Assembly (NCBI RefSeq): GCF_001517585.1 | Contig: NZ_FBYC01000001.1 | Span: 310,001-374,000, forward strand | Direction of reading: 5' to 3' | Length of the DNA stretch: 64,000 nt | Source: Roseibaca calidilacus | GTDB lineage: Bacteria; Pseudomonadota; Alphaproteobacteria; Rhodobacterales; Rhodobacteraceae | Shown: positions 4,829 to 54,218 of the stretch, in pieces | How positions within the stretch are numbered: the stretch's first letter is position 1 | Layout: each line of letters opens with the position of its first letter | Notes under the pieces: generated by a model | Told to the model about the DNA's origin: nothing | What the model saw: the letters and a program-made list of their open reading frames with translations, nothing else | The model's database searches: none | Program-made: the position numbers and the translations under genes

Positions 4829-4857
4829 ATATGGGGGTAGGGGCTTTATTCTGCAAG
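4829..4857 (-). promoter_or_regulatory. Candidate RpoH (sigma-32) promoter of hsp20
   Basis: On the minus strand CTTGCAG (4857-4851) is followed after 14 bases by CCCCATAT (4836-4829). Alphaproteobacterial heat-shock promoters have a CTTG-type -35 and a C-rich CCCAT or CYTAT -10 element, so this fits. It would leave a 5' leader of about 60 bases before the hsp20 ATG, which includes an imperfect CGGGT/ACCCG hairpin at about 4797-4819. No transcript data support it. Confidence 0.5.
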
Positions 4858-4928
4858 CTTGGCCAACAGGGGCTTTTGTCACAGCGGGTTCCGGGCTAGG
4901 CTAAGAAAAAACAACGGTAGTCCCGGAC

Positions 4929-5147: not shown

Positions 5148-5207
5148 GGCAATTGCGCCTGTGGGGCGGCCTTGTATAAGGCGACAAGAAGCGTGACGGG
5201 GGTGCAG

Positions 5208-6756: not shown

Positions 6757-6783
6757 GTTTGCCGATTTGCGGATGCCGCTGTG

Positions 6784-7425
6784 TCAGCCCGCATCCAGCG
6801 TGCGCGTGATTTCGGCCAACAGGGCTTCCAACTCTGTGCGCAAGGCGGGGTTCGCGGCACCTTCGGCGGCACCCAAGCCTTCACCAAGGCTGGCCGCATA
6901 GGCCACGCGGTTGGCGATCTGCGTTTCGGCAAGATCGGCGGCCAGCCCTTTGGCGGCTTCCGAAATTTCTGCGCCCAGCTTGGTGCCCGCGCGCGCGCGA
7001 TTCAGCACCAGCAGCACCTCGCGCCCCTCGCGGCGGGCCAGATCCAATACGCCATCGGTGGCCCAAAGGTCGACATGGCTGGACGCGATGGGCACCAGCA
7101 CCAGATCAGCCGCGCGCAAAGCCGGGCGCAAATCGCTATCGGCCTTGGGCGGCGTGTCGATGATAACGAAATCCGCCATGTCGCGCAGCTTGCCAACCTC
7201 GTAGCCCACCCCCCAAGCAGAGGATGTCGAGAACTCCATGCCATTTGCGCGACCCGCCTCGTGACGGGTCATGAACCAACGTCCCAAAGACCCTTGCGGA
7301 TCGGTGTCCAGAAACGCAACCGAATGCCCGGCGCGGACCAACATGACCCCAAGGTTAACCGCAAGCGTGGTCTTGCCGGATCCGCCTTTTTGCTGCGCGA
7401 CGGTGATAACCTTGCCTTTGGCCAT
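6784..7425 (-). CDS. Orphan ParA/MinD-type ATPase
   Basis: Deviant Walker A ATPase of 213 residues. KGGSGKTT at 13-20, DTDPQGS near 41 and the Walker B-like FVIIDTPPKAD near 88 define the ParA superfamily. ParA proteins position DNA, protein arrays or division machinery on the nucleoid or membrane. No ParB-like gene is adjacent, so it is an orphan; MipZ, PpfA-like cargo ATPases and plasmid-type ParA are all possible. The start MAKGKVITV is chosen because it precedes the first strand; the frame also opens at 7500 inside the Lrp gene tail. Confidence 0.85.
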   Translation of the reverse strand: MAKGKVITVAQQKGGSGKTTLAVNLGVMLVRAGHSVAFLDTDPQGSLGRWFMTRHEAGRANGMEFSTSSAWGVGYEVGKLRDMADFVIIDTPPKADSDLRPALRAADLVLVPIASSHVDLWATDGVLDLARREGREVLLVLNRARAGTKLGAEISEAAKGLAADLAETQIANRVAYAASLGEGLGAAEGAANPALRTELEALLAEITRTLDAG

Positions 7426-7486
7426 GGTTTGCTCCTTTTGCTGCGGCGCAGCATAACGGATTTGTAACGCCATTGCACGCGCTATC

Positions 7487-7939
7487 TCAGGCGCGGTCAT
7501 CCTTGGGCGAGCCCATGACCACCATCGTCGTCAGTGTGTTCAGATACGGGAACGCACCAAGATATTCTGTATGGAAATGCTTGTAGGCGGGAAGGTCGCG
7601 CGCTTCGACCCGCAGCAGATATTCGACCGTCCCGGTAATGTTGTGACATTCGCGCACTTGCGGGGCGGCGCGCATCAGCCGCTCGAATTCTGCCTGCGCG
7701 GCTTTGGTGTGCTGCGACAAGCCCACGGTCACATAGGCAACAAAGCCGGTCCCGGTTTTCGCCGGGTCCACCACCGCGCGGTAGCCGGTTATGATGCCCC
7801 GGCGCTCCATATCCTGCACGCGGCGCAAACAAGCAGAGGGCGACAGGCCCACGCGGTCCGCCAGTTCCAGATTCGGGATGCGCCCCTCGCGTTGCAAGAT
7901 GCGCAATATATGGTGGGATTTCTCGTCCAGATCGCTCAT
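7487..7939 (-). CDS. Lrp/AsnC family transcriptional regulator
   Basis: Regulator of 150 residues with an N-terminal winged helix-turn-helix (LQREGRIPNLELADRVGLSPSACLRRV, residues about 13-41) and a C-terminal RAM/AsnC ligand-binding domain (GFVAYVTVGL onward, with the CHNITGTVEYLL segment). Such proteins sense amino acids and often control a divergently transcribed exporter. Here it is divergent from a LysE-type exporter 102 bases away, so local regulation of that gene is the natural guess. ATG at 7939 is the first start compatible with the family; the frame extends upstream through non-homologous sequence. Confidence 0.92.
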   Translation of the reverse strand: MSDLDEKSHHILRILQREGRIPNLELADRVGLSPSACLRRVQDMERRGIITGYRAVVDPAKTGTGFVAYVTVGLSQHTKAAQAEFERLMRAAPQVRECHNITGTVEYLLRVEARDLPAYKHFHTEYLGAFPYLNTLTTMVVMGSPKDDRA

Positions 7940-7942
7940 CAA

Positions 7943-8029
7943 TTGCAAAAATACCGCAACCAGCACAAATATTGCAACCAGAATGCAGCGTAGCGGCGCT
8001 AGATTGCGCGAACGCGCCAAACTGCGCAA
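7943..8029. promoter_or_regulatory. Candidate Lrp-type operator between regulator and LysE exporter
   Basis: The 102-base divergent region contains TTGC-N9-GCAA (7943-7959) and TTGCGC-N14-GCGCAA (8004-8029), with more TTGC half-sites between. Repeated dyads of this kind are typical of Lrp/AsnC binding regions, but the consensus of this particular regulator is unknown. Confidence 0.4.
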
Positions 8030-8041
8030 AAAGAGCCCCAA

Positions 8042-8638
8042 ATGACGTTCGAGATATTCGCAGCCCTTCTGACCTTCGCTTTCGTTACCGCCGTCACACC
8101 GGGGCCGAATAACGTTATGCTTATGGCCTCTGGCGTCAATTTCGGCTTTCGCCGCACCATTCCGCATATGGCGGGCGTGGCCTTGGGGCATGCTTTCATG
8201 GTGTTTCTGGTCGGCGTCGGGCTGATGGGCGCGTTTATCAGCTACCCGCCCTTGCAGATGGCGCTCAAGGTTGTCTCTGCGCTATACATGCTGTGGCTGG
8301 CATGGAAAATCGCAACCGCCGTACCGCCTTCGGGCGCCAAGGCCGAAGGTAACCCCCTGACCTTTTTGCAAGCCGCCGCGTTCCAATGGGTAAACCCCAA
8401 GGCTTGGATCATATCATTGGCGGCGGTGGCGATCTATGCCCCCGATCAGCAATTCGGCGCAGTGGCTTGGGTGGCTTTGGGGTTCCTGAGCGTTGGCTGG
8501 CTGACAACCGTCATCTGGACCGCTGTCGGGGTTAGCCTGCGCCGTCTGCTGACCCGCCCAAGCTGGCTGCGCCTGTTTAACTACACGATGGCGGCGTTGC
8601 TTCTGGCCTCGCTTTACCCGGTTCTGTTTCAGGGCTGA
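8042..8638 (+). CDS. LysE family amino-acid exporter
   Basis: Inner-membrane protein of 198 residues with about six hydrophobic segments. The N-terminal LLTFAFVTAVTPGPNNVML followed by GFRRTIPHMAGVALGH is the signature of the LysE/RhtB superfamily, which exports amino acids or related metabolites. WVNPKAW near residue 118 is also typical. Divergent from an Lrp/AsnC regulator. The exported compound cannot be inferred. Confidence 0.92.
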   Translation: MTFEIFAALLTFAFVTAVTPGPNNVMLMASGVNFGFRRTIPHMAGVALGHAFMVFLVGVGLMGAFISYPPLQMALKVVSALYMLWLAWKIATAVPPSGAKAEGNPLTFLQAAAFQWVNPKAWIISLAAVAIYAPDQQFGAVAWVALGFLSVGWLTTVIWTAVGVSLRRLLTRPSWLRLFNYTMAALLLASLYPVLFQG

Positions 8639-8730
8639 AAGGCTTGCGTGGACCAAGACGCGCGGCTAGTCTTTGCCCCGGACCCGTCAGGGCCCCACGA
8701 AAAACACACACATATCCTTGGGAGGATACC

Positions 8731-9690
8731 ATGACATTCAAGGCAACGGCCCTCGTGGCCGCAGCGGCGCTTATGGCGGCACCGGTCGCGGCGCAGGAAC
8801 TGTCTATCGCAACAGGCGGCACGGGCGGGGTGTATTTCCCCTATGGTGGCGGTCTGGCAGAGGTGATCTCGAACCATATCGATGGGGCATCCGCCAGCGC
8901 CGAAGTGACAGGGGCATCGGTCGAAAACGTGGCGCTGATCGCGCGCGGCGACAGCGACATTGCCATCGCATTGGCCGATACCGTTTATGGCGCCTATAAT
9001 GGCACCGGTGCATTCGAAGGCCGTCAGGTCGGCGAATTGCGCGCTTTGGCCTCTATCTATCCCAACGCGGTGCAGATCGTGACATTGGCAGATAGCGGTA
9101 TTTCCAGCTTGGATGACCTGCGCGGCAAGCGCGTGTCCGTCGGCGCACCGGGGTCAGGCACCGAAGTCAGCGCGCAGACATTGCTGGAAGCCAATGGCAT
9201 CACCTATGATGACTTCGACGAACAGCGCCTGAACTTCAACGAAACCGCTGACGCGCTGCGCGATGGTGACATTGACGCAGGTTTCTGGAGCGTGGGCCCG
9301 CCCACCTCGTCCATCCTGAACCTTGCGACCACGCGCGACATTACGCTTGTCCCGCTGTCCAGCGACCAGATTGCCGCCGCGATCGAGGTTGAGGCGACCT
9401 TCGCCCCCTACACGCTGCGCGAAGGTTTGTATGACGGCGTGGATATGGCGGTTGCGACCATTTCCACCCCGAATGTGCTGATCGTTCACGCCGATATGGA
9501 CGAGGAACTGGCCTATAACATCACCAAGGCGATGTATGAAAACGTGGAAGAGCTGATCGCCATTCACCCGGCCGCGAATGACACCACGTTGGAGTTCTCT
9601 GTCGCGGCAACGCCCATCCCCTTCCACCCCGGCGCGCTGCGCTATCTGGAAGAAGTGGGTGCGGATGTGCAGGATCGTCAGCGTCCGTGA
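8731..9690 (+). CDS. TAXI family TRAP transporter solute-binding protein
   Basis: Periplasmic binding protein of 319 residues with a Sec signal peptide (TALVAAAALMAAPVAAQ, cleavage near residue 21). ELSIATGGTGGVYFPYGGGLAEVI is the hallmark opening of the TAXI subfamily, and GKRVSVGAPGSGTE near residue 133 and FWSVGPPTSS support it. A strong ribosome site (GGAGGAT, 8721-8727) precedes ATG 8731. The stop overlaps the GTG of the DUF1850 gene, and the fused permease follows, giving a three-gene TRAP cassette. TAXI substrates are mostly unknown, with glutamate-like acids among those studied. Confidence 0.93.
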   Translation: MTFKATALVAAAALMAAPVAAQELSIATGGTGGVYFPYGGGLAEVISNHIDGASASAEVTGASVENVALIARGDSDIAIALADTVYGAYNGTGAFEGRQVGELRALASIYPNAVQIVTLADSGISSLDDLRGKRVSVGAPGSGTEVSAQTLLEANGITYDDFDEQRLNFNETADALRDGDIDAGFWSVGPPTSSILNLATTRDITLVPLSSDQIAAAIEVEATFAPYTLREGLYDGVDMAVATISTPNVLIVHADMDEELAYNITKAMYENVEELIAIHPAANDTTLEFSVAATPIPFHPGALRYLEEVGADVQDRQRP

Positions 9691-10148
9691 CGGTTTGGGC
9701 AATCGGGCGGCCAGTTTTGGCCGCCCTTTTCATGGCCTTGCCAGCCCATGCGAGCGATGCGCTGCAAGCCGTCACGCAAGACGGGCATATTGTGGCCGAA
9801 TTGCCCTTTGACGGGGGTGAAATTTGCCTGACATGGGCGCATTCCGTTAGCGGCGGGGCTGTGGCCGATTGCTTTGCCGCGCGCGATGGGCGGTTGGTTC
9901 TGGTCGGCAGCTTCCTGCATGACTACGCCGCCGGGTTGGGAGAGGTCGCAAACCGTGGCCGGGTCATTCCGGCAGAGGGTGGCGGCTACTGGATTGTCGA
10001 GATTGATGAACCTATGCCCCCCGACGGTCTGCCCTTGCGCGTTGGTCCTGCCCGGGTTGGCCACAAACTGACTGGCGCGGCGGGCGTGATCGACCTGTCG
10101 GCCATTGCAGAAAATACACGTGTAACCTTGCGGGTTCGTCCCGAATAA
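9687..10148 (+). CDS. DUF1850 domain-containing protein of the TAXI-TRAP cassette
   Basis: Exported protein of 153 residues with a signal peptide (RPVLAALFMALPAHA, cleavage near residue 23). The body (ICLTWAHSVSGG near residue 47, later VGHKLTGAAGVIDLS) matches DUF1850, a small family found between TAXI binding proteins and TRAP permeases. The GTG at 9687 overlaps the upstream stop; a later ATG at 9732 would leave too short a signal peptide. The DNA encoding GRPVLAALF is itself a perfect terminator-like hairpin, described separately. Function unknown. Confidence 0.8.
   Translation: MTVWAIGRPVLAALFMALPAHASDALQAVTQDGHIVAELPFDGGEICLTWAHSVSGGAVADCFAARDGRLVLVGSFLHDYAAGLGEVANRGRVIPAEGGGYWIVEIDEPMPPDGLPLRVGPARVGHKLTGAAGVIDLSAIAENTRVTLRVRPE
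9705..9730 (+). terminator. Terminator-like hairpin inside the DUF1850 signal-peptide coding region
   Basis: GGGCGGCCA (9705-9713), loop GTTT, TGGCCGCCC (9718-9726), then TTTT. The nine-base perfect stem and T-run make a convincing intrinsic terminator sitting 15 bases after the binding-protein stop codon. It would cut most transcripts after the binding protein gene, giving more binding protein than permease. The T-run is only four long, so termination may be partial. Confidence 0.65.
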
Positions 10149-10167
10149 CCAAAGCGGAACCGTTCAG

Positions 10168-12198
10168 ATGTCGCAAGCAGACCTGCAAGATGTGATCCCC
10201 GAATCGATGCGTTCGGCCGACGCGATTCAGCCGCGCTACGTTCTGTGGGCAATCACGCTGACCGGCGTCGCCTTGTCGCTGTTCCAGCTATACACCGCGG
10301 GCATCGAACCGCTGGGGCTGTTTTACCAACGAACGGCGCATCTGGGCTTTATCCTGTTCTTGGCGTTCCTGTTATTCCCGCTGACCGGCCAGTCACGCCG
10401 CCGCACATGGTGGGCATGGGGCATTGATGCGGTGTTTCTGGCCGCGTCGTTCCTGAGCGGGTTCTACATCATCTGGTATCTGGATGACATCATTGCGCGG
10501 GCAGGCTGGTGGTCGCAAGCCGATATCATTGTCGGGGTCATCTGCGTCATCGCCGTGCTAGAGGCCAGCCGCCGTGTCGTGGGGCTTGGCCTGACCATCA
10601 TCGGGCTGGTCGCAATCCTTTATGCGCTGGCAGGCTCTCGCGGGGCGCTGCCTTGGCTGGGCGACATGATGCCGGGCATCCTGTCGCATCGCGGCGCCAG
10701 CCTAGACCGCTTGGTGGGTCAGCTTTACCTCGGTCAGGAAGGCATTTTCGGGCTGCCCTTGGGTGTGGCCGCGACCTATGTTTTCATGTTCGTGTTGTTC
10801 GGCGCGTTCTTGGAAAAGACCGGCGCGGGCAAGTTCTTCATCGACCTTGCCTTTGCCGCAACCGGGCGCAAGGCGGGCGGTCCGGCCAAGGCCGCCGTGA
10901 TCGCCAGCGCCGGGATGGGGTCCATCTCTGGCTCTGCGATTGCCAATGTGGTCACGACCGGGGCCTTCACCATTCCGCTGATGAAGAAACTTGGCTACCG
11001 CCCCGCGCAGGCGGGGGGCGTCGAGGCTGCGGCCTCTACTGGCGGGCAAATCACGCCACCCTTGATGGGGGCAGGGGCCTTTCTGATCTCGGAATACACC
11101 CAGATTCCTTATGTCGATATTGTTCTGGTCTCTATCTTCCCGGCGATCCTGTATCTTGGGACCGTCTACCTGTTCGTGCATCTTGTTGCCATGAAGCAGG
11201 GCATGAAGGGTCTGCCCGCGTCGGAATTGCCGGTGGTGCGGCAGGTGCTGGCGGCAGGTTGGCAATTCATCGTGCCGCTGATTTTGCTGATCGTGCTGCT
11301 GGTCAACAGCATCTCGCCCATGCGGGTGGGGTTCTGGGCGATCATTTCGGTCATCGCCATGGCGGGCCTTCGCGGCGCTTGGGCGCTTTATGCCGATGGG
11401 CCAATGACCGGCGCGCGCATCCGCGAGTCTGTCATGCGGGGCATTCGCATGGTCTTTGAATCGCTGGAACTGGGCGCGCGCAATGCCGTGGCGGTGTCCA
11501 TTGCCTGCGCGGTGGCAGGCATCATCGTGGGTGTTGTGGGCCTGACCGGGTTGGGGCTGAAATTCAGCTCCATGATGATCTCGCTCTCGGGCGGCAATAT
11601 CGTGATTGCTTTGGGGCTGGTGCTGATCGCCTCACTGATCCTTGGCTTGGGCCTGCCCGTCACGGCCAGCTATATCGTGCTGATCGTGCTGGTCGGCCCG
11701 GCGCTGAACACCGAATTCGGCATTCCGCTTCTGATCGCGCATCTGGTCGTGTTCTGGTATTCCCAAGACAGCAATGTCACGCCCCCGGTGGCGCTGGCAG
11801 GCTTTGCGGGCGCGGCGATTGCCGGGGCCAAGCCCATGGAAACCAGCTTGCAAGCATGGAAATACGCCAAAGGGCTGTATCTGATCCCGGCTTTCATGGT
11901 GTTCAATCCAGAATTGATCCTTGGCGGGCCAGTGCCCTATGTCATCTGGATCGGCTTTAGCGCGGCGCTGGGGTTGGTTGCCTTTGCCGCCGCGATCGAG
12001 GGGTATCTGTTCGCGTCCATGAAAGCGTGGATGCGTCTGGCGCTGGTGCCGCCGATCATTGCCCTGTTCTGGCCCAGCTTTGCGGCGGAACTGGTCGGCG
12101 CGGCGGCTATTCTCGGGCTTCTGGGAATGAACTGGATGGCAGGGCGTCAGGACAGGACAGTTCTTGCGCCAGAAACCGCTCGAACGCGTCCAGATTGA
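10168..12198 (+). CDS. TRAP transporter fused permease (4TM/12TM)
   Basis: Integral membrane protein of 676 residues, the size of fused DctQ-DctM TRAP permeases found with TAXI binding proteins. The N-terminal part (residues 25-125) has about four hydrophobic segments; the rest is the large subunit with GSISGSAIANVVTTGAFTIPLMKKLGY near residue 250 and AAASTGGQITPPLMGAGAF near 290, both typical. It probably uses the sodium gradient. The last 92 bases overlap the 3' end of the convergent ArsR-type gene. Confidence 0.95.
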   Translation: MSQADLQDVIPESMRSADAIQPRYVLWAITLTGVALSLFQLYTAGIEPLGLFYQRTAHLGFILFLAFLLFPLTGQSRRRTWWAWGIDAVFLAASFLSGFYIIWYLDDIIARAGWWSQADIIVGVICVIAVLEASRRVVGLGLTIIGLVAILYALAGSRGALPWLGDMMPGILSHRGASLDRLVGQLYLGQEGIFGLPLGVAATYVFMFVLFGAFLEKTGAGKFFIDLAFAATGRKAGGPAKAAVIASAGMGSISGSAIANVVTTGAFTIPLMKKLGYRPAQAGGVEAAASTGGQITPPLMGAGAFLISEYTQIPYVDIVLVSIFPAILYLGTVYLFVHLVAMKQGMKGLPASELPVVRQVLAAGWQFIVPLILLIVLLVNSISPMRVGFWAIISVIAMAGLRGAWALYADGPMTGARIRESVMRGIRMVFESLELGARNAVAVSIACAVAGIIVGVVGLTGLGLKFSSMMISLSGGNIVIALGLVLIASLILGLGLPVTASYIVLIVLVGPALNTEFGIPLLIAHLVVFWYSQDSNVTPPVALAGFAGAAIAGAKPMETSLQAWKYAKGLYLIPAFMVFNPELILGGPVPYVIWIGFSAALGLVAFAAAIEGYLFASMKAWMRLALVPPIIALFWPSFAAELVGAAAILGLLGMNWMAGRQDRTVLAPETARTRPD

Positions 12199-12484
12199 CG
12201 GCATCATATTGGCCGAAAGCCTGCATCCAGACCGATGCCTCGCGCAGGGCGTCGGGCTCCAGTTTGCACCATTTCACCCGGCCACGCTTTTCTTGGCTTA
12301 TCAGCCCCGCATTGGCGAGGATAACCAGATGCTTGGACACGGCGGCCAGCGACATCTCGAACGGGTCGGCGACATCGGTCACGGCCATGTCGTCTTCCAA
12401 AAGCATGGCCAGAATGGCGCGCCGCGTGGGGTCGGCCAGCGCGGTAAAGACCAGATCAAGCGAGGGGGCGGGCGAAGTATCCAT
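12107..12484 (-). CDS. ArsR family winged-helix regulator
   Basis: Regulator of 125 residues. LDLVFTALADPTRRAILAMLL is the classic ArsR opening and AVTDVADPFEMSLAAVSKHLVIL the recognition helix region (about residues 33-57). The metal-site cysteine box is absent, so it is likely one of the non-metal ArsR proteins, which often sit with SRPBCC or other detoxification genes; none is adjacent here. Its tail overlaps the end of the TRAP permease gene by 92 bases. ATG 12484 is preferred over an upstream in-frame start at 12511. Confidence 0.88.
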   Translation of the reverse strand: MDTSPAPSLDLVFTALADPTRRAILAMLLEDDMAVTDVADPFEMSLAAVSKHLVILANAGLISQEKRGRVKWCKLEPDALREASVWMQAFGQYDAVNLDAFERFLAQELSCPDALPSSSFPEARE

Positions 12485-12514
12485 GGCCCTATCTTTCGTG
12501 TGTGGGCGCAAAGG

Positions 12515-12530
12515 TCAACTGAATGGTTGA
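12515..12530. promoter_or_regulatory. Candidate operator of the ArsR-type regulator
   Basis: TCAAC-N6-GTTGA (12515-12530) is a perfect dyad 31 bases upstream of the regulator ATG. ArsR proteins of this kind often repress their own gene through such a dyad. Confidence 0.45.
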
Positions 12531-12641
12531 ATATGCTGCATGTGCACAACCTGCCTATCGCGCCCAAGCAATAATTTGGCTCGATAAAAAAAATCAATAT
12601 TATCAATAATTTGCGGAAAATTCTGCGCCGCGTTTGCTTTC

Positions 12642-12670
12642 TTGACTCTGGCGTCCCCTCTGCATAGCTT
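12642..12670 (+). promoter_or_regulatory. Sigma-70 type promoter of the atp (Fo) operon
   Basis: TTGACT (12642-12647), a 17-base spacer and TAGCTT (12665-12670), 28 bases before the atpI ATG at 12698. An A/T-rich run (about 12574-12612) lies upstream and could be an UP-like element. Spacing and -35 are good; the -10 is weaker. Confidence 0.6.
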
Positions 12671-12697
12671 GCGCGCAACTCAAGGCCGGGAGAGGGC

Positions 12698-13036
12698 ATG
12701 ACCGATAGCGACGAGCGTGAGCGCCTGAAGGCACTCGAAGCACGCATCTCGCAGGTTCGGGCCAAGCATGACCCTAAACCGGTTGCGCAGGATCATCATT
12801 CCATGGCCCAAGTGGGCTGGCGCATGGTGATCGAACTTGTCACCGGCCTTTTTCTTGGGGCCGGCATCGGATACGGGCTGGACTGGCTGTTTGATACCAT
12901 GCCGCTCTTTCTGGTGGTGTTTACAATACTGGGCTTCGCCGCCGGCGTGCAGACAATGCTGCGCTCGGCACGCGAACTGGCCGTGACGACCGATCAATCG
13001 ACCCCGCCACAAGCGGGCGACCAGAAGAAGGACTAG
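12698..13036 (+). CDS. atpI: ATP synthase protein I (AtpI)
   Basis: Small membrane protein of 112 residues with a charged N-terminal helix (residues 1-35), two hydrophobic segments (about 44-66 and 70-90) and an acidic tail. In alphaproteobacteria AtpI heads the Fo operon and helps assembly of the c-ring. [22 protein letters not shown] is typical of the family. atpB starts four bases downstream. Confidence 0.9.
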
Positions 13037-13040
13037 ACCT

Positions 13041-13784
13041 GTGGCAGAAGAAAGTGGCGGCCTTGTCATCAAGCCCATGGACCAGTTTCGGGTCGAAGCG
13101 CTCTTTGGGGGCGATATTGCGTGGTACACGCCGACCAATGTCACCTTGTGGATGGCGCTGACCGTTTTGGCTGCCACGGCGCTGATGGTGTTCGGTGCCC
13201 GCGGTCGCGCGCTGGTGCCCAGCCGCGCACAATCCGCCGCAGAGATGACCTATGGTTTCATATACAAGATGGTCGAGGATGTCGCTGGCCATGATGCCGT
13301 GCGCTTCTTTCCCTATATCTTCACGCTGTTCATGTTCGTTCTGTTCGCGAACCTTCTGGGCCTGATCCCCTTTGCCTTTACCACCACCTCGCATATTGCG
13401 GTTACGGCGGTTTTGGCCTTCGCGGTGTTCTTTACGGTCACGGCGCTGGGCTTCATCTTGCACGGCACCAAGTTTCTGAAACTGTTCTGGGTTGACAGCG
13501 CGCCCTTGGCGCTGCGTCCTGTGCTGGCGCTGATCGAGGTGATTTCCTACTGCGTGCGCCCAGTCAGCCATTCCATTCGTCTTGCCGGTGCGATGATGGC
13601 CGGGCACGCCGTGGCCAAGGTGTTTGCAAGCTTTGCAGCCGCGCTTGGCGCTTTCTTCTTCGTTCCGATCTTGGCCGTGACCGCGCTTTACGCGCTGGAA
13701 CTGCTTGTGGCCGTCATTCAGGCCTATGTCTTCACCATTCTGACCTGCGTCTATCTGAAAGACGCATTGCATCCTGCGCATTAG
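13041..13784 (+). CDS. atpB: F1Fo ATP synthase subunit a
   Basis: Membrane subunit of 247 residues that forms the proton half-channels with the c-ring. The essential arginine is in [16 protein letters not shown] near residue 178, in the position of the family motif SLRLFGNMxAGH, though the following residues (LAGA rather than LFGN) are a variant. [19 protein letters not shown] near residue 110 is canonical. It uses a GTG start at 13041, four bases after atpI. Confidence 0.96.
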
Positions 13785-13843
13785 GCGCGGCGCTCGGGTC
13801 CGGATAATCCATCTTGCCAATTCCAACTCAAGGAGAAACGACT

Positions 13844-14080
13844 ATGGAAGGCGATATCGCAGAAATGGGTAAATACATCGGTGTTGGTCTGACCGCCATT
13901 GGTATGGGCGGCGCCGCAATCGGTGTGGGCAACATTGCAGGCAACTTCCTGTCGGGTGCTCTGCGCAACCCGTCGGCTGCTGCTGGTCAGACCGCTATGC
14001 TCTTCATCGGCATCGCGTTTGCAGAAGCTCTGGGGATCTTCTCGTTCCTCGTCGCTCTGCTGCTGATGTTCGCTGTCTAA
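13844..14080 (+). CDS. atpE: F1Fo ATP synthase subunit c
   Basis: Two-helix proteolipid of 78 residues that forms the rotor ring. [13 protein letters not shown] is the glycine-rich first helix and the ion-binding glutamate is in AFAEALGIF near residue 62. The lack of the Gln and Ser/Thr ligands seen in sodium-type rings suggests proton coupling. A ribosome site AAGGAGAA precedes ATG 13844; an in-frame upstream start at 13814 would add ten non-family residues. Confidence 0.97.
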
Positions 14081-14155
14081 GCACATCCCGACGTATCCTT
14101 ACGGCTGGCGGGGCGCGCGCGTCCTGCCGGTGTTTTCCGGGGTTAGGGGGATGAT

Positions 14156-14674
14156 ATGGCAGAGACTGCTGCTTCGGGGCCGGGTATGCCCCAACTGGAT
14201 ATAACCACCTTCTCGAACCAGATCTTTTGGCTGGTCGTGGCTTTGGTGGTTCTGTATTACGTCATGTCCCGCGTGGCGCTGCCGCGTGTGGCCTCGGTTC
14301 TGGCCGATCGTCGTGGTGCCATTACCGCAGACATTGCCGCCGCCGAGGAATACAAGCAAAAAGCACTGGATGCCGAGGAAGCCTTCAAAAAGGCTGAAGC
14401 GGATGCACGCGCGGAAGCGCAGCGCATTGTCGAGGCCGCCAAGGCAGAAATGCAAGAAGCCTTGAACGCCCAGATCGCCAAGGCAGATGCAGAGATTGCT
14501 GCGAAATCCGCCGAGTCTGAAAAGCGTATCCGCGACATTACCGCCAACGCGGTAGAGATGGTGGGCGACGTTTCGAATGACGTGACCAAGGATATTGTTG
14601 CGGCGTTCGATATGAAGGCAGATGCACGCAGCGTGACTGCGGCCGTCAAAGCCCAGATGAAGGGGAATGCATGA
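14156..14674 (+). CDS. atpG': F1Fo ATP synthase subunit b'
   Basis: Peripheral stalk subunit of 172 residues. A short N-terminal lead with MPQLDITTFSNQIFWLVVALVVLYYVM forms the single membrane helix (about residues 18-40), followed by a long Ala/Glu/Lys-rich coiled coil to about residue 155. Photosynthetic and alphaproteobacterial synthases use a b/b' heterodimer, which fits the second b-type gene overlapping downstream. The symbol for this subunit varies between genomes. Confidence 0.93.
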   Translation: MAETAASGPGMPQLDITTFSNQIFWLVVALVVLYYVMSRVALPRVASVLADRRGAITADIAAAEEYKQKALDAEEAFKKAEADARAEAQRIVEAAKAEMQEALNAQIAKADAEIAAKSAESEKRIRDITANAVEMVGDVSNDVTKDIVAAFDMKADARSVTAAVKAQMKGNA

Positions 14675-15234
14675 TGTTGCGTCTTGCCGCCATTGCCATG
14701 CTGCTGGCCAGCCCCGCGCTTGCTGCGGTCGAAGGCAAGCCCTTCTTCTCGCTGTATAATACCGACCTGATTGTCCTTGCGGCCTTTACCGTTTTCATCG
14801 GTATTTTGATCTATGCGAAGGTGCCCGGCAAGCTGGGCGATTTGCTGGACCAACGGTCTGCTACGATCAAGGCAGAGCTTGAAGAAGCCCGCCGCCTGCG
14901 TGAAGAAGCGCTGGAACTGCATGCCTCTTTCGAGCGCAAGCAGGCCGAGGTCAAGGCAGAGGCCGCGCGCATTGTGGAAAAGGCGAAAGCCGATGCGCAG
15001 CTTGCCGCAGAGCAAACCAAGGCAGAGATCGAGGCGTCAATTACGCGCCGCCTGAAAGCTGCAGAGGATCAGATCGCCTCTGCCGAAGCGGGTGCGATCC
15101 GTCAGGTGCGGGACAAGGCAACTGAAGTGGCGATTGCCGCTGCCGGAACCGTCATCGCCAAGAACATGGATGATGCACGCAGCGACGCGCTGATTGCCGA
15201 TGCGATCAAGGCTGTGAACGAACGCCTGCACTAA
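14671..15234 (+). CDS. atpF: F1Fo ATP synthase subunit b
   Basis: Second peripheral stalk subunit of 187 residues. It begins with a signal-like hydrophobic stretch (LAAIAMLLASPALAA), then the membrane segment around residues 26-50 (LYNTDLIVLAAFTVFIGILIYAKVPGKL), then a long coiled coil rich in Ala and Glu. The ATG overlaps the b' stop as ATGA. A strong terminator follows at 15256-15285, so the Fo operon ends here and the F1 genes must be elsewhere, as is normal in this class. Confidence 0.94.
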   Translation: MMLRLAAIAMLLASPALAAVEGKPFFSLYNTDLIVLAAFTVFIGILIYAKVPGKLGDLLDQRSATIKAELEEARRLREEALELHASFERKQAEVKAEAARIVEKAKADAQLAAEQTKAEIEASITRRLKAAEDQIASAEAGAIRQVRDKATEVAIAAAGTVIAKNMDDARSDALIADAIKAVNERLH

Positions 15235-15255
15235 CTGGCGCAGCCCAAGAACAGC

Positions 15256-15285
15256 AAAAAACCCGGCTGCAAGGCCGGGTTTTTT
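15256..15285. terminator. Bidirectional terminator between atpF and the GntR gene
   Basis: Perfect 12-base inverted repeat: AAAAAACCCGGC (15256-15267), six-base loop, GCCGGGTTTTTT (15274-15285). It has a T-run in both directions and serves the Fo operon on the plus strand and the FCD regulator on the minus strand, whose stop codon (15285-15287) touches its last base. Confidence 0.9.
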
Positions 15286-16055
15286 CATAAGCTTTCTTGT
15301 GAGTGTTCGTAACGCAGTCGCGCAATGGCTTCGTTATGCTCGCTGCGTTTGAAGTCGTTCATGATCCTCTCGACAAAATCCAGATGCGCCGTGGCTGCCG
15401 CATGGGCCGCAACAGGGTCGCGGGCCTGAATGGCCGCGTTGATTGCCTTGTGCTGGGCCAGCAGGTCGCTGCGGGTGGCGCGCTGGCGAAAGATCATCTG
15501 GCGATTATAGAAAACACCTTTATGCAACAGGTCGAACATGGCGCGCATCATGTGCAGCATGATGATGTTATGCGACGCTTCCACGATTGACAGGTGAAAT
15601 TCGGCGTCAAGCTGCGCTTCCTCGGTCGGATCACGTTTCTGATGCGCGGCTTCCATGCGCTGGTAGAGGGTGTTGATAACCGCCAAATCCGTATCCGACC
15701 CAAGCCGCGCGGCCCTCTCTGCCGACATTGCCTCCATGTCGCGGCGAAAGCTGATGTAATCGAACAATGCTTCATCATGTTCGGCAAACAAGCGCACCAA
15801 CGAATCCGAAAATGCGCTGTCCAGCAATTCGGCTACGAACACGCCGGCCCCGGCGCGGCTTTCCAGCAACCCGCGGTCCTGCAATTCCGCCAAAGCGTCG
15901 CGCAGGCTGGGACGGGACACGCCCAACCGTTCGGCCAGAACACGCTCTGCGGGCAACCGCTCGCCCGGGCGCAGGACACCGCGCAACAAAAGCAGTTCAA
16001 TCTGCCGCACGACCGATTGTGACAGCTTTTCGGGCTGGATGCGCTGAAATGGCAA
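15285..16055 (-). CDS. FadR/GntR family regulator with FCD domain (PdhR-like)
   Basis: Regulator of 256 residues. The winged helix at residues 8-75 has LPAERVLAERLGVSRPSLRDALAEL, and the C-terminal FCD domain (about 90-230) carries the metal/acid-binding pattern DAEFHLSIVEASHN with later histidines in AQHKAINAAI and AAATAHLDFV. The subfamily includes PdhR, LldR and GlcC, sensors of pyruvate, lactate or glycolate. A very good ribosome site (TAAGGAGG on the minus strand) precedes the start. No catabolic gene is adjacent, so the target is open. Confidence 0.9.
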   Translation of the reverse strand: MPFQRIQPEKLSQSVVRQIELLLLRGVLRPGERLPAERVLAERLGVSRPSLRDALAELQDRGLLESRAGAGVFVAELLDSAFSDSLVRLFAEHDEALFDYISFRRDMEAMSAERAARLGSDTDLAVINTLYQRMEAAHQKRDPTEEAQLDAEFHLSIVEASHNIIMLHMMRAMFDLLHKGVFYNRQMIFRQRATRSDLLAQHKAINAAIQARDPVAAHAAATAHLDFVERIMNDFKRSEHNEAIARLRYEHSQESL

Positions 16056-16126
16056 GTTTCCTCCTTACCCCATCTATGCGGGGTTTTGGTAAAAAGATAT
16101 GACCGAATATCGCCCGCCGCAATCAA

Positions 16127-16153
16127 AAAGGCTGACCGCAAGGATCAGCCTTT
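16127..16153 (-). terminator. Terminator of the OmpA-family lipoprotein gene
   Basis: On the minus strand AAAGGCTGA, a nine-base loop and TCAGCCTTT followed by TT and an A/T-rich tail, 22 bases after the stop codon of the OmpA-like gene. Confidence 0.75.
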
Positions 16154-16175
16154 CGTGGCAAGCTACAGGTATCGC

Positions 16176-16814
16176 CTAGCTAGGCTGATACGGTCGGACG
16201 TAAATTTCAACCCGGCGGTTCTGCTGCCGCCCCGATGCGGTGCCATTATCGGCGACCGGCTGGGTCAGCCCGCGCCCTTCGGCGCGCACGCGCGAAGCAG
16301 CGACACCATTGTTGAACAACACCTGCGCCACGCTGGCCGCGCGCCGTTCCGACAGCCCCTGATTATAGCTGGCCGACCCGGTATTGTCGGTATGGCCCAC
16401 CACACGCACATCGCTGCGCGGGTAGTCCACAAGGTTATTGGCAATCACGCGCAGGTCGCTTTGCAGATCGGGGCGCACGGTGGCGCTGTCGGTCGCAAAC
16501 AGCAGGTCTTGCGGCAGGGTCAGGATCAGTTCCTGCCCGGTATTCTCGATATTCACGTCACCGCCCAGTTGGCGGCGCAGCTCTGCGGCCTGACGGTCCA
16601 GCCGTTGGCCAATCAGCGCACCGCCTGTGCCCCCGATCAGGGCGCCGGCCAAGGCCCGGTCGCCGCCGCCATCACCCGTCGCGGCACCTACGACGGCACC
16701 AACGGCCGCCCCGGTCAATGCGCCCGTAAATGTGCGGTTTTGCGGGTTATTGGGGTCGGGGGCGCAGGCACTTAGGGCCAGAACCGAAATTGCAAAAGGG
16801 GCGACGAGTCTCAT
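16176..16814 (-). CDS. OmpA family outer-membrane lipoprotein (YiaD-like)
   Basis: Protein of 212 residues with a lipoprotein signal (lipobox LSAC, Cys16). A glycine-zipper region (about residues 29-68, FTGALTGAAVGAVVGAATG and ALAGALIGGTGGALIG) is followed by the OmpA peptidoglycan-binding domain (about 95-205) with DVRVVGHTDNTGS, SERRAASVAQVL and NRRVEIYV. This is the YiaD/glycine-zipper type that links the outer membrane to peptidoglycan. Monocistronic, with its own terminator. Confidence 0.92.
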   Translation of the reverse strand: MRLVAPFAISVLALSACAPDPNNPQNRTFTGALTGAAVGAVVGAATGDGGGDRALAGALIGGTGGALIGQRLDRQAAELRRQLGGDVNIENTGQELILTLPQDLLFATDSATVRPDLQSDLRVIANNLVDYPRSDVRVVGHTDNTGSASYNQGLSERRAASVAQVLFNNGVAASRVRAEGRGLTQPVADNGTASGRQQNRRVEIYVRPYQPS

Positions 16815-16900
16815 GACACTCTCCTACTAACTGCCCGCGTGATACCATATTCTGGGCGCACCCACCATTGCGGCGCGCGCCGATACGCGGGGATTTGCCA

Positions 16901-17740
16901 TCACGCTTGCGCGACAGCATCGGCCTGCGCGGCTTCCCAGCCCAGCATGGCGCGTTTGCGCGTCAGCCCCCAATGATACCCGCCAAGTGCTCCGCTGCCT
17001 TGCAGCACGCGGTGGCAGGGAATGACAAAACCCAGCGGGTTGCGCCCCACCGCCGTGCCCACCGCGCGCGCGGCACGTTCCGAACAGACGGTTTTTGCGA
17101 CCTCGCCATAGCTGGTGACATGACCGGGCGGCACCTGCAACAAGGCTTCCCAGACCTTTATCTGAAAGGGCGTGCCGATCATGTGCAATTGCGCCGTTCC
17201 TTTGCGGGCAAAGGCCACATCAACATGTGGCGCGGCTGCCGCCGGATCGGCCCTATAGCGCGCTTTTGGCCAGCGTCGGGTCATGTCAGCCAGGGCCGAC
17301 ATGTCGTCGCAGTTTTCGGCAAAGGCCAGCCCGCACAGGCCGCGATCCGTTGCAAGCCCCAAGGCCGGTCCGAAGGGGCTGTCGAACCAGCCATAGTGTA
17401 TCTCCAGACCCTCGCCGCGCTTGGCATAATCACCGGGGGTCATTCCTTCCCAGCGCAGGAACAGATCATGCAGCCGCGCTTGCCCGGACAGGCCAAGCTG
17501 CAAGGCGGTGTCGAACGTCGAAAACCGCGCCGCAAGCAACTGCCGTGCATGGCCCAGCGTCAGGTATTGCTGGTAGCGTTTGGGCGAAACCCCGGCCCAA
17601 GCACTGAACACCCGCTGAAAATGCGCGGCGCTCAGGCCAAGCTCTGCTGCCAGATCGTCCAGACTGCGCGCGGTGCCGCCCGGCGCGTCAATCAGCGCAA
17701 TCGCCCGCGCGATCAGCTTGTAATGATAACTTTGGTCCAT
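16901..17740 (-). CDS. AraC-type HTH / methylated-DNA-cysteine methyltransferase fusion (Ada-like)
   Basis: Protein of 279 residues joining an AraC helix-turn-helix (about residues 28-108, with LAAELGLSAAHFQRVFSAWAG) to an O6-alkylguanine DNA alkyltransferase domain (about 190-270). The acceptor is Cys242 in VIPCHRV, and GTPFQIKVWEAL and VTSYGEVA are conserved. The N-terminal zinc domain of E. coli Ada is missing, so it cannot sense methylphosphotriesters the same way; many alphaproteobacteria carry this two-domain form. It is divergent from an MFS gene. Confidence 0.92.
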   Translation of the reverse strand: MDQSYHYKLIARAIALIDAPGGTARSLDDLAAELGLSAAHFQRVFSAWAGVSPKRYQQYLTLGHARQLLAARFSTFDTALQLGLSGQARLHDLFLRWEGMTPGDYAKRGEGLEIHYGWFDSPFGPALGLATDRGLCGLAFAENCDDMSALADMTRRWPKARYRADPAAAAPHVDVAFARKGTAQLHMIGTPFQIKVWEALLQVPPGHVTSYGEVAKTVCSERAARAVGTAVGRNPLGFVIPCHRVLQGSGALGGYHWGLTRKRAMLGWEAAQADAVAQA

Positions 17741-47506: not shown

Positions 47507-48220
47507 ATGTCATCAGCGGCCCTTGGCGCAGAGCTGGAACAGCTTCGCGCGCAAATCCTGTCGGACCCGGCCCTTATTCTGGATGACAAGGACGTTATGC
47601 GCGCCCTTGTCGCCGCTTCCGAGCGCGAGATGGGCACGAATATCGTGGACCTGCGCGGACTGGCCATGGAACGGTTGGAAGCGCGCCTTGACCGGCTGGA
47701 AGAAACCCACCGCGCGGTAATTGCGGCAGCTTATGAAAACCTGTCGGGCACCAATCAGGTGCATCGCGCCATTTTGCGCATGCTGGACCCCACCCAATTC
47801 GAGGAATTCCTGCGCAATCTTGGGTCGGATGTGGCCGAGATATTGCACGTGGATGCGATCAAACTGGTGCTGGAAAGCCCCGAAGCCGGGCCTGACCCGG
47901 CCTTGGAGCGGATTTCCGATGTGTTGGTCGTGGTCGAGCCGGGCTTCGTCGATGATTATATCAATCTTGGCCATGCGCCGACCTCGCGGCAGGTGATCTT
48001 GCGTCAGGCCGTGCCCGCGACCACCCGGCTTTATGGCCAGCGCGCCGCCGATTTGCGGTCAGAAGCCTGTTTGCGGCTGGACCTTGGCACGCAGCGCATG
48101 GGCGGGATGCTGGTCATGGGGTCAGACAACCCGCATACGTTCAAGCCGGGGCAGGGCACGGATCTGCTGTCTTTCTTCGCGGGCATCTTCGAGAGGTCGA
48201 TGCGCCGCTGGCTGGCATGA
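47507..48220 (+). CDS. DUF484 family protein
   Basis: Protein of 237 residues with an N-terminal helix rich in Glu and Leu and a GAF-like C-terminal half, LRLDLGTQRMGGMLVMGSDNPHTFKPGQGTDLLSFFAGIFERSM. This family normally sits next to xerC, whose start overlaps its stop by four bases here. Its role in recombination is not established. Confidence 0.9.
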   Translation: MSSAALGAELEQLRAQILSDPALILDDKDVMRALVAASEREMGTNIVDLRGLAMERLEARLDRLEETHRAVIAAAYENLSGTNQVHRAILRMLDPTQFEEFLRNLGSDVAEILHVDAIKLVLESPEAGPDPALERISDVLVVVEPGFVDDYINLGHAPTSRQVILRQAVPATTRLYGQRAADLRSEACLRLDLGTQRMGGMLVMGSDNPHTFKPGQGTDLLSFFAGIFERSMRRWLA

Positions 48221-49137
48221 TCGCGCCGGCGCTGGGCGACGCGCTGACGCGCTTTTTGCAGCGCAAGCAAAGCTTGGACGGGGCGTCAGCCAATACGATC
48301 GCGGCTTATGCGACCGATCTGCGCGGCTTTCTGGGGTTCATGGCGCAGCATCTGGGCGGGCTGGACAGCCCCCGCGCCTTGGGCGGTATCACGCAATCCG
48401 ACATGCGCGCTTGGATGGCGGATGCGCGCGGACAGGACTTGTCGGCACGCGCCTTGGCGAGGAAACTGTCTGCCGTGCGCGGCTTTGCGCGGTTCATCGC
48501 GGATGACACCGGCATAGACATTTCCGCCATTCTGGCCACCCGTGCGCCGAAACATGCCCGTGCATTGCCCCGGCCCTTGTCGGCCGCGGATGCCCGAGAG
48601 GTGCTGGACCGTGTTGCCTTGCAAACCTGCGCCGAATGGGCGGGACTGCGCGATATGGCCGTGGTCACGCTGCTCTATGGCTGCGGGTTGCGCGTGTCGG
48701 AAGCGCTGTCGTTGACCGGGCGCGACGCCCCCTTGCCAGAAGTGCTGCGCATCTCCGGCAAAGGCGGGCGCGAACGGTTGGTGCCGGTGCTGCCCGTGGC
48801 GCGCCGCGCCGTGGATGCCTACCTGCGCGCCTGCCCCCATGCGCAAGCCCCCGATCTGCCGTTGTTTCGTGCCATGCGCGGCGGCGCGCTGGACCGCCGC
48901 CATGTTGCCCGCGTGATGGAAGCAACCCGCCTGCAACTGGGCCTGCCCGCAAGCGCCACGCCCCATGCGTTGCGCCACTCCTTTGCCACCCATCTGCTGG
49001 CCAAGGGCGGCGATCTGCGCGCCATTCAGGAATTGCTGGGCCATGCCTCTTTGCGCTCGACCCAAGTCTACACGGCGGTTGACACGACCCGCCTGATGGA
49101 TGTTTACGAACGCGCACACCCGCGTGCGCGCGGCTAA
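48217..49137 (+). CDS. xerC: Tyrosine recombinase XerC
   Basis: Site-specific recombinase of 306 residues resolving chromosome dimers at dif. N-terminal SAM-like core-binding domain about residues 10-95; the catalytic domain carries Arg in LLYGCGLRVSEALSL, Lys in SGKGGRERLVPV, HALRHSFATHLL near 255 and the nucleophile Tyr in RSTQVYTAVD near 285. XerD is not in the window. Confidence 0.96.
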   Translation: MIAPALGDALTRFLQRKQSLDGASANTIAAYATDLRGFLGFMAQHLGGLDSPRALGGITQSDMRAWMADARGQDLSARALARKLSAVRGFARFIADDTGIDISAILATRAPKHARALPRPLSAADAREVLDRVALQTCAEWAGLRDMAVVTLLYGCGLRVSEALSLTGRDAPLPEVLRISGKGGRERLVPVLPVARRAVDAYLRACPHAQAPDLPLFRAMRGGALDRRHVARVMEATRLQLGLPASATPHALRHSFATHLLAKGGDLRAIQELLGHASLRSTQVYTAVDTTRLMDVYERAHPRARG

Positions 49138-51189: not shown

Positions 51190-51672
51190 GGGGGTCCTCC
51201 GGTTTGACTGTGTGAATAGCAGGTTCCAGTAGGGGGAAGGAAAGACACGTTGGCGTGAGGCATGGAGAATGTTTCACGTGAAACCTAAGCTATTGAATTT
51301 AAATGTAAATGATTTCTTTGTTGAGCGTGCGGTGGGGCAGGGTGCGTCGCGTCCCGGACGTGATCCGGGGCCTTGCCGCCCGCGCGGGTTGGCCCAGAGG
51401 CCCCGGCTCGGGGGCCGGGGCGTATGGTGCTGGAAGCCCCTGCGCCGTGCAACGTGAGGCACCAAGCGGCGCAAGCGACGTCGCGCGCGGTGGCGCAGCG
51501 CGGGGTGATCTGTGGCGCTTTATGGTGGCCATGTCCGAAAGACGGGGGATCGGCGCGCAGGTGGATGTCAAAGCGCCGCCGCTCGGGGGCGCGTCATGCC
51601 GCAGGCATGCTTTCAGCATGACGCTTGCGCGGCGGGTCTGACGGCCCTTGATTCCGCGCGCGTTGAGCGGTT
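51190..51672. other. 483-base region without a convincing gene
   Basis: Contains a parS site (51270-51285), a short A/T-rich stretch after it (about 51291-51320) and then about 330 bases of very GC-rich sequence. The latter has many short inverted repeats, including GCGTCATGC (51591-51599) with GCATGACGC (51616-51624). A short open frame at 51309-51641 is low in complexity and shows no family. Part may be degenerate intergenic repeats. Confidence 0.5.
51270..51285. promoter_or_regulatory. parS: parS centromere site for ParB
   Basis: TGTTTCACGTGAAACC, 15 of 16 bases identical to the universal parS consensus TGTTTCACGTGAAACA, with a perfect 14-base palindrome GTTTCACGTGAAAC (51271-51284). Lies in a gene-free stretch 80 bases upstream of the DUF305 gene. 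ParB binds here and spreads to organise the origin region. The parAB genes themselves are not in the window. Confidence 0.9.
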
Positions 51673-52266
51673 CTAGTAAGGCGCTTCTTCAGCGATTCTT
51701 TGTGCTATGCTTCGCATTTCTGAAATGATTGACTGACACCTGCCCTGCGTTTTAAGATAGCTCCCAGCTGTTCCAATCCTCTGAGCGCCGATAGAATCTA
51801 AGGCGCGCTTTTTAGACTGACTTGAATCGTGGGCTGCATAGTTGCGCAAAGCTAATAATTTATTCAAAGTATCTTTGTACGATGGATCTTTAAGTACAGT
51901 TGTCAAAAAATTGTTTTCACCAACGAAACGCTTGCACTTGTTGACTATTTCCTTCTGCCCCTTAAAGTCAAAGTAGCCATTTCCAATTATAAGATATTCA
52001 CAAACCTCATCTGTAAGGTTCTTAGGAAATTCAAATCCCTGATAATCTGAAAGCGCACTAGTATTCCTATTGAGACCAGCGATTAAACACTCCAAGAGCA
52101 TTTGCTCAAACTCACGGTATAACTTCATTATCGCATATTCATGCGCCCAACTTATGTGTTTATCACTAGCATTATTTGAGATCGTAAACTCAAGAAATTC
52201 GGTGATTTCAGCGCACTCAGAAATAAAGCGCTCAGCTGGTATTCTCGAACTCTTTTTTTTAGCCAT
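51673..52266 (-). CDS. AT-rich HEPN-like protein of unknown function
   Basis: Protein of 197 residues that I could not name by family. All-helical, charged, with LNKLLALRNYAAHDSSQSKKRALD near residue 135; R141-x4-H146 is the Rx4-6H signature of HEPN ribonucleases (RiboL-PSP or MAE_28990-like type). The 180 bases at 51841-52020 contain only 62 G/C by my count (34 percent), far below the neighbours, so it looks recently acquired. It starts two bases after the parE stop and is on the same strand, so it is probably transcribed with parE. No nucleotidyltransferase-type antitoxin is beside it. Confidence 0.7.
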   Translation of the reverse strand: MAKKKSSRIPAERFISECAEITEFLEFTISNNASDKHISWAHEYAIMKLYREFEQMLLECLIAGLNRNTSALSDYQGFEFPKNLTDEVCEYLIIGNGYFDFKGQKEIVNKCKRFVGENNFLTTVLKDPSYKDTLNKLLALRNYAAHDSSQSKKRALDSIGAQRIGTAGSYLKTQGRCQSIISEMRSIAQRIAEEAPY

Positions 52267-52268
52267 CT

Positions 52269-54218
52269 TTAAACATCCAACTCCTCCACAAACCGCGCGT
52301 TCTCGGAAATATACTGAAACCGCAATTCCGGCTTCTTGCCCATCAGCCGCTCGACAAGGTCCGACGTCTCGCCCGGCAGATCGTCATCCACCGACACGCG
52401 GATCAGGCGGCGTGACGCCGGGTCCATCGTTGTTTCCTTCAAATCCTTCGCGTCCATTTCGCCCAAACCCTTGAAGCGGGACACGTCGATCTTGCCTTTG
52501 CCGCCCAGCCCCTCGGCCAGAAGCCTATCCTTCTCAACCTCGTCCAAAGCGTAAACGCGCTTGGCCCCTTGGGTCAGCCGGAAGAGCGGCGGGCAGGCCA
52601 GATACAGGTGGCCCGCGTCGATCATGGGGCGCATCTGGGTGTAGAAGAAGGTCATCAGCAGCGCCGCGATATGCGCCCCGTCCACATCGGCGTCGGTCAT
52701 GATGATGATCTTGTCATAGCGCAGATCATCTAGCCTGAACTTGTTGCCCAGCCCCACGCCCATGGCCTGACACAGGTCGTTGATCTCGGCATTCGTGGTC
52801 AGCTTGTTCGACGCAGCCCCCAGCACGTTCAGGATTTTGCCGCGCAGGGGCAGCAGCGCTTGGGTTTTGCGGTCGCGGCCCATCTTGGCGGACCCGCCCG
52901 CCGAATCGCCCTCGACAATGAACAGCTCTGTCCCTTCCTTGTTGGTGGCGGAACAATCGACCAGCTTGCCGGGCAGGCGCAGCTTTTTCGTCGCGGTCTT
53001 GCGCGAGGTTTCCTTTTCCTGCCGCCGCCGCAGCCGTTCCTCTGCCCGCAGCACCAGAAAATCAAGGATCGCGCCCGCCGATTTCGGGTCTGCCGCCAGC
53101 CAGTTGTCGAAATGGTCGCGCACCGCGCCTTCGACCATGCGCGCAGCTTCGGTTGTGGCCAGCCGGTCCTTGGTCTGGCCCACGAATTCGGGTTCGCGGA
53201 TAAAGCAGGACACCAGCGCACAGCCGCCCGCCGCCATGTCCTCTCGGGTGATCTGGGCGGCTTTCTTGTTGTTGGCGAGTTCGCCGTAAGCGCGGATGCC
53301 TTTCAGCACCGCCGCCCAGAAGCCCGCCTCATGCGTGCCGCCTTCGGGGGTGGGGACGGTGTTGCAGTAGGATTGCACGAAGCCGTCGCGTGCCGGTGTC
53401 CAGTTGATGGCCCATTCAACGGAACCGGGCTGGTTGAACTTCTCCTGAAAGCTGACCTTGCCGGCGAAGGGTTTGTCGGAATAGGTGACATTGCCGGTAA
53501 GCTGTTCGTTCAGGTAATCGGCCAGCCCGCCGGGGAAGTGGAAGGTCGCTTCCATCGGGGTGTCGCCGTCGGGGATGGCCGATTTCCAGCGGATTTCCAC
53601 GCCGGAAAACAGGTAGGCCTTGGAGCGCACCATGTTCAGCAGCCGCGCGGGGCGGAATTTCAGCGCGCCAAAAATCTCTGCATCCGGGTGGAAGGTGAAG
53701 GTCGTGCCGCGCCGGTTCGGGGCGGGGCCGATCTTGGCCACCGGCCCTTGCGGAATGCCGCGCGAGAAGTCTTGCGCATAAAGCTCTCGATTGCGGGCCA
53801 CTTCCACGCGCAGCCGGTCCGACAGCGCGTTGACCACCGACGCCCCCACGCCGTGCAAGCCGCCCGATGTGGCATAGGCCTTGCCGCTGAACTTGCCGCC
53901 TGCGTGCAGGGTGCAGAGGATCACCTCTAGCGCGGATTTGTCGGGGAATTTCGGGTGCGGGTCGATGGGGATGCCGCGGCCATTGTCGCGGACGGTGATG
54001 GCGTAATCGGCGTGCAGTTCGACTTCGATGCGGTTGGCATGGCCCGCGACGGCTTCGTCCATGGAGTTGTCGAGCACTTCGGCCACCAAATGGTGCAGGG
54101 CGCGTTCATCCGTGCCGCCGATATACATGCCGGGGCGCTTGCGGACGGGTTCCAGCCCTTCCAGCACCTCGATGGACGACGCATCATAGCTGTCGGATTG
54201 CGGCAAAAGGTCGGACAT
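52269..54218 (-). CDS. parE: DNA topoisomerase IV subunit B
   Basis: ATP-driven type II topoisomerase subunit of 649 residues that decatenates chromosomes. The GHKL ATPase domain (VLDNSMDEAVAGHA, DNGRGIPIDPH, SGGLHGVGASVVNALS) is followed by the transducer and the Toprim domain with VEGDSAGGSAKMGRDRKTQALLPLRGKILNV and DADVDGAHI. Being near 650 residues instead of about 800 and reading DSYDASSIEVLEGLEPVRKRPGMYIGGTDE makes it ParE, not GyrB. Confidence 0.94.
   Translation of the reverse strand: MSDLLPQSDSYDASSIEVLEGLEPVRKRPGMYIGGTDERALHHLVAEVLDNSMDEAVAGHANRIEVELHADYAITVRDNGRGIPIDPHPKFPDKSALEVILCTLHAGGKFSGKAYATSGGLHGVGASVVNALSDRLRVEVARNRELYAQDFSRGIPQGPVAKIGPAPNRRGTTFTFHPDAEIFGALKFRPARLLNMVRSKAYLFSGVEIRWKSAIPDGDTPMEATFHFPGGLADYLNEQLTGNVTYSDKPFAGKVSFQEKFNQPGSVEWAINWTPARDGFVQSYCNTVPTPEGGTHEAGFWAAVLKGIRAYGELANNKKAAQITREDMAAGGCALVSCFIREPEFVGQTKDRLATTEAARMVEGAVRDHFDNWLAADPKSAGAILDFLVLRAEERLRRRQEKETSRKTATKKLRLPGKLVDCSATNKEGTELFIVEGDSAGGSAKMGRDRKTQALLPLRGKILNVLGAASNKLTTNAEINDLCQAMGVGLGNKFRLDDLRYDKIIIMTDADVDGAHIAALLMTFFYTQMRPMIDAGHLYLACPPLFRLTQGAKRVYALDEVEKDRLLAEGLGGKGKIDVSRFKGLGEMDAKDLKETTMDPASRRLIRVSVDDDLPGETSDLVERLMGKKPELRFQYISENARFVEELDV

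Follow-up and report, generated by a model that had tools for sequence, protein, structure and literature searches.

The gene behind parE and its surroundings

The window analysed here, a 64-kb stretch (64,000 nucleotides) of the Roseibaca calidilacus genome, contains directly behind the essential core gene parE a solitary open reading frame for a HEPN-like protein, which runs on the minus strand from an ATG to a TAG. The features of the locus are given below, where the slot denotes the place behind the parE stop codon at which foreign genes are found.

51673..52266, minus strand: solitary HEPN-like gene, 197 aa, G+C 0.40 (open reading frame, AlphaFold model, structural neighbours, homologues 34-47% identical)
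51829..51846, minus strand: codons of the Rx4H motif, R141-N-Y-A-A-H146 (R141, N142, A144, A145 and H146 invariant in both alignments)
52269..54218, minus strand: parE, DNA topoisomerase IV subunit B, 649 aa, left flank of the slot (open reading frame, orthologues)
52269..52277, minus strand: left junction, final parE codons GAT GTT plus TAA, signature of slot carriers (codon counts in carriers versus non-carriers)
51580..51661, minus strand: right flank of the slot (blastn, 96% identity to the sequence behind a different HEPN gene in the sister genome G792)
51271..51284, no strand: parS site GTTTCACGTGAAAC, an exact palindrome, about 0.4 kb from the HEPN-like gene and the sole one in the window

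The original prediction described an AT-rich gene in a GC-rich neighbourhood, starting two bases past parE on the same strand and lying near a parS site, and in all these points it proved accurate. In fact the lowest 200-bp bin of the gene has a G+C of 0.36 against about 0.60-0.65 in the surroundings and about 0.62 over the genome stretch, and a maximal-segment scan (score >= 25) returned a single AT-rich segment in the window, at 51671-52327. Between the parE stop codon (52269-52271) and the ATG there are 2 nt (TAA-AG-ATG), and the parS sequence found no match in 100 shuffles. As for the further claim that the gene is fused onto the parE unit, the adjacency is confirmed and the two genes are probably read through together, while a fusion in the proper sense is not seen. 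The neighbours of the gene are parE and the gene of a secreted His/Met-rich protein, which belongs to another unit.

Two further elements lie in the vicinity. A gene for a XerC-like tyrosine recombinase (48217-49137, and the corresponding part of locus L064) lies 3 kb away from the slot, and none was seen near parE in several other slot carriers. Moreover, GC-rich intergenic repeats occupy 51300-51660 behind the slot; they were considered as mobility ends, yet similar copies are scattered in the congeners G783 and G792, and they look like ordinary intergenic repeats.

Fold, family and relatives of the protein

The motif R141-N-Y-A-A-H146 has the Rx4H form of the Rx4-6H motif of the HEPN superfamily. 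R141, N142 and H146 are invariant in homologues from Alphaproteobacteria, Actinomycetota, Planctomycetota and phages, and R141 together with H146 in 10 homologue loci, which bears out the motif as originally predicted. Pfam gives only weak matches to HEPN families, the best being RiboL-PSP-HEPN (PF18735) with an E value of 0.007 and 16.7 bits, below the gathering score of 28.4; two homologues scanned against Pfam have no match at all. PADLOC, NCBIfam and PHROGs offer nothing firm for the protein, and a search by sequence found no solved relative. The AlphaFold model (pLDDT 92, pTM 0.89) is all helical with a predicted four-helix core. In a structural second look, HEPN or HEPN-like entries fill 17 of the 20 top rows (Z 7.7-10.0), and HEPN entries head the list with Z up to 10.0 across 128-137 residues, a modest value since the tool advises 13 for helical bundles. 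The top neighbours are HEPN-MNT toxins, SO_3166, YutE, AF_0298 and sacsin, with Csm6 at Z 6.6, and the expected ribonuclease-type fold is thus borne out at the level of a model. Foldseek alone gave no match at E <= 0.001, and a viral structure search returned one uncharacterised siphovirus protein with a TM of 0.60.

Motif, family matches and predicted fold therefore agree on the HEPN assignment despite the modest Z. Because it scores below Pfam's HEPN cut-offs, the protein is, as judged from sequence and model, a member of an undescribed HEPN subfamily, which has its own conserved motifs: KKS at the N terminus, FPK, C-x-Y, YFDF-x-G and ALRN-x-AAH. It resembles most the RiboL-PSP-HEPN and Abi2/AbiF group (Anantharaman et al. 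2013, PMC3710099), whose members are likewise helical, of about 200 aa, solitary and defence-linked with an Rx4-6H motif; unlike them, it stays under the gathering score and carries the motifs just named.

The subfamily is rare and patchy. Of 394 genomes of the host family a single one contains it, if a weak distant match is set aside, and 385 genomes of the class yielded no additional member. Full-length homologues with 35% identity are present on two Streptomyces plasmids. Single-sequence scans of genome and viral contigs gave no relatives, whereas an alignment including the plasmid homologues retrieved members in an alphaproteobacterial MAG, Hyphomicrobium, Amycolatopsis, Prauserella, Actinorhabdospora and one planctomycete, as well as homologues in five IMG/VR contigs. 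With such a distribution, and no close homologue at the parE position in the family, the suspected foreign origin of the gene is supported. In the subfamily tree the window copy has a branch length of 1.64 compared with 0.03-0.82 in the other members, and because of this long branch its function may have drifted.

The position behind parE in the genus and the family

A survey of the position downstream of parE, as the original prediction had proposed, found different AT-rich genes there across the family. Within the genus, an AT-rich foreign gene starts at the parE stop codon in 10 of 26 congeners, and 7 of the 8 AT-rich segments in 99 kb begin at most 24 nt from it. In the sister species G792, whose ParE is 98% identical, the slot holds a different AT-rich gene, namely a RiboL-PSP HEPN above the Pfam cut-off, and its flanks match those of the window on both sides (blastn, genome search). 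As the flanks are the same and the genes are different, one gene has taken the place of the other. Mrr is the cargo in G791, in G785 and, to judge by its first codons, in G793; further congeners hold a TIR protein, a phosphotransferase-like gene, an SNase-like gene or membrane proteins, and in four an MT-A70 methylase and a BglII-type endonuclease of normal G+C lie behind parE. In G783 the slot is seemingly empty, but 35 nt from the 3' end of an Mrr gene persist directly behind parE, with 30 of 35 positions identical; this is a slot that lost its cargo. The remnant, within the first 41 nt after parE (L071), is in frame after the stop codon.

The same position is used in other genera. Orthologues of parE are present in 60 of 61 sampled genomes of the family, and among 60 other genera, of which 51 were scorable, 30 have an AT-rich block beginning at the parE stop codon, low-GC genomes whose AT-rich block reached the end of the stretch being left out of the counts. 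With gyrB ends and the local neighbourhood as the controls, 2 of 24 cleanly located gyrB ends have such a block against 30 of 51 at parE (p = 4e-5). The slot usually contains one foreign gene and rarely a short operon, in either orientation. Elsewhere in the family the cargo comprises RiboL-PSP HEPN, AbiU2 HEPN, DUF4145, AbiTii, DUF3800 and DUF2971 proteins and many without a Pfam match; the Pfam names over all cargo include HEPN_RiboL-PSP (G792, G065), HEPN_AbiU2, DUF4145, AbiTii, Mrr, TIR_2 and SNase. HEPN-type proteins are found in about seven slots, a number that counts DUF4145 as HEPN after PMC3710099 and includes one AbiU2 relative (L153) recognised from its likeness to L109. The label of a defence slot is not proven for all cargo, because Pfam assigns no family to roughly half of these genes. 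Among the cargo, related opposite-strand genes with the motifs NCPFD and HDLSR lie behind parE in three genera (L114, L117, L154); they have no Pfam match where scanned and may form an effector family that handles nucleotides. In two more loci behind parE, from two genera (L105, L110), the cargo is a membrane protein of about 225 aa; these two are related to each other and likewise lack a Pfam match.

The left junction leaves a trace in parE itself. The last codon is GTT in 20 of 30 carriers and in none of 21 non-carriers (p = 7e-7), and the penultimate one is GAT in 29 of 30 against 6 of 21 (p = 2e-7); in the genus, GTT or GTA ends the gene in 7 of 10 carriers and 1 of 16 others (p = 0.001), all these p values taking genomes as independent, uncorrected for shared ancestry. 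The shift in third-position G+C is limited to the last two codons. Translational coupling is an unlikely cause, for GTT or GTA is likewise the usual last codon in carriers whose cargo lies on the opposite strand. At the right boundary of the slot there is no conserved motif and no enriched k-mer, the parE end is not repeated beyond chance, and no recombinase was found to be associated with the slot. From the codon signature and the lack of a right motif or a parE repeat, we conclude that the left border is sharp and the right border variable. An integron-like cassette was also considered and rejected, as the slot is without an attC-like or enriched right boundary and without a repeat of the parE end, and the cargo occurs in both orientations.

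The 3' end of parE is thus a family-wide insertion slot with cargo turning over between close species, and it has the look of a docking site at which single genes are exchanged. Diverse genes at one flank of a core gene and turnover in close relatives are what recombinase-free core-gene hot spots (PMC5635113) display, and together with cDHS1/cDHS2 of Pseudomonas aeruginosa (PMC10250203) these share with the slot the fixed core-gene flank, the high turnover, the defence content and the lack of an obvious mobile element. In contrast to cDHS1, whose median size within a single species is 26 kb (PMC10250203), and to cDHS2, the parE slot mostly holds one gene, 0.5-1.2 kb in length, begins at the stop codon, has a nucleotide signature on the left and extends over many genera. 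A limited search of open-access text found no published description of a hot spot at parE.

How the cargo enters may be understood from these borders. Known routes include homology-facilitated illegitimate recombination as well as the gene transfer agents found in this bacterial group. Incoming DNA would anchor by homology at the parE end, while its other end would join illegitimately, and such a one-sided route seems to us the likeliest and the most economical. Rather doubtful is an undescribed sequence-specific exchange at the parE 3' end, which in all parts of the family would insert and replace genes one at a time at the stop codon, for the most part solitary defence effectors, and would leave the GAT-GTT-stop signature without a recombinase of its own.

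Possible function and rival explanations

Taking these observations together, we consider it fairly probable that the gene encodes a horizontally acquired, solitary HEPN protein of an undescribed subfamily, which acts as an effector of the abortive-infection type and sits in a swappable slot behind parE. The predicted active site, R141 and H146, lies where a core helix ends, a placement shared with other HEPN ribonucleases, and a metal-independent RNase activity is most likely. The gene would be expressed at a low level off the parE transcript and its product kept silent; once a phage is detected or a further layer of defence has been breached, the protein would cleave RNA and stop the host. 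This infection-triggered arrest, and the silence that precedes it, we infer from the predicted HEPN fold and the context of the relatives, and it is the context that favours a role in defence. The option of a domesticated regulator, which the original prediction had left standing, received no support.

The context of the homologues would also fit another reading. Hma (helicase-methylase-ATPase) is a candidate defence system (PMC8565338), and a study that states experimental support for the Hma helicase treats it as a Type-1 system related to BREX, in which HEPN proteins are auxiliary effectors (PMC12839542). In two loci (L005, L007) a homologue lies between HmaA and HmaB with HmaC (DUF499) next, the Hma operon being complete; in L006 and L008 it is about 3 kb from a helicase and a methylase, both of the Hma kind, and in L093 it directly follows a DUF499-like ATPase, named by eye. 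The gene could accordingly be an escaped auxiliary subunit of Hma that still needs such a system, or else the plasmid-borne Type-3 BREX-like operon of its own genome. The latter, identified by gene order and size, is located on the 98-kb contig C2 (at 4489-17235 of locus L156, which is C2 12000-30000) and comprises a WYL regulator, a small P-loop protein and BrxC-, PglX-, BrxHII- and PglZ-like genes in this order. However, the window copy stands alone: the HmaA, HmaB and HmaC operon is absent from the window and from the genome, which has no HmaB, and a weak HmaA match there is the helicase of the BREX-like operon. Homologues also occur alone in phages and plasmids, as beside capsid genes in a Streptomyces phage-plasmid and IMG/VR contigs (L003, L011, L012), while on one phage contig (L092) a homologue precedes a TIR/SEFIR-like gene, named by eye. 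Nor is a HEPN of this kind a regular part of Hma, for PADLOC defines the system by three genes without it, and the 1.5-kb flanks read in 12 alphaproteobacterial genomes with HmaB, among them one that begins at a contig end, contain no subfamily member; the link of the subfamily to Hma is therefore occasional. The tree does not tell which context is the older one, and altogether we hold dependence on such a system to be rather unlikely.

It is unlikely, too, that the protein works as a toxin paired with an antitoxin, as in HEPN-MNT or similar pairs, and that this antitoxin lies elsewhere or was lost. Toxins of HEPN-MNT pairs such as SO_3166/SO_3165 are the closest solved structures and have the same type of motif, but they are of about 130-145 aa without detectable sequence similarity to the 197-aa window protein. 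As originally noted, no MNT or other small partner gene stands beside the gene in the window, and neither an MNT nor a conserved antitoxin or other partner was found beside the homologues examined. Quite improbable is a non-functional passenger soon to be lost, in a slot between transcription units that merely tolerates inserts. The long branch of the window copy, its rarity in the family and the remnant of earlier cargo in G783 agree with such a passenger, but its reading frame is intact with the motif and other invariant residues retained, and neutral tolerance explains neither the sharp start at the parE stop codon and the GAT GTT signature nor the concentration of Abi, HEPN and restriction genes.

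If it is true that a universal core gene is followed by a fixed slot for one gene, the place would be a simple fishing site, and reading past parE across the family should yield many undescribed single-gene defence candidates, new HEPN subfamilies included. Moreover, the sharp left junction makes it testable how recombinase-free hot spots gain and lose genes.
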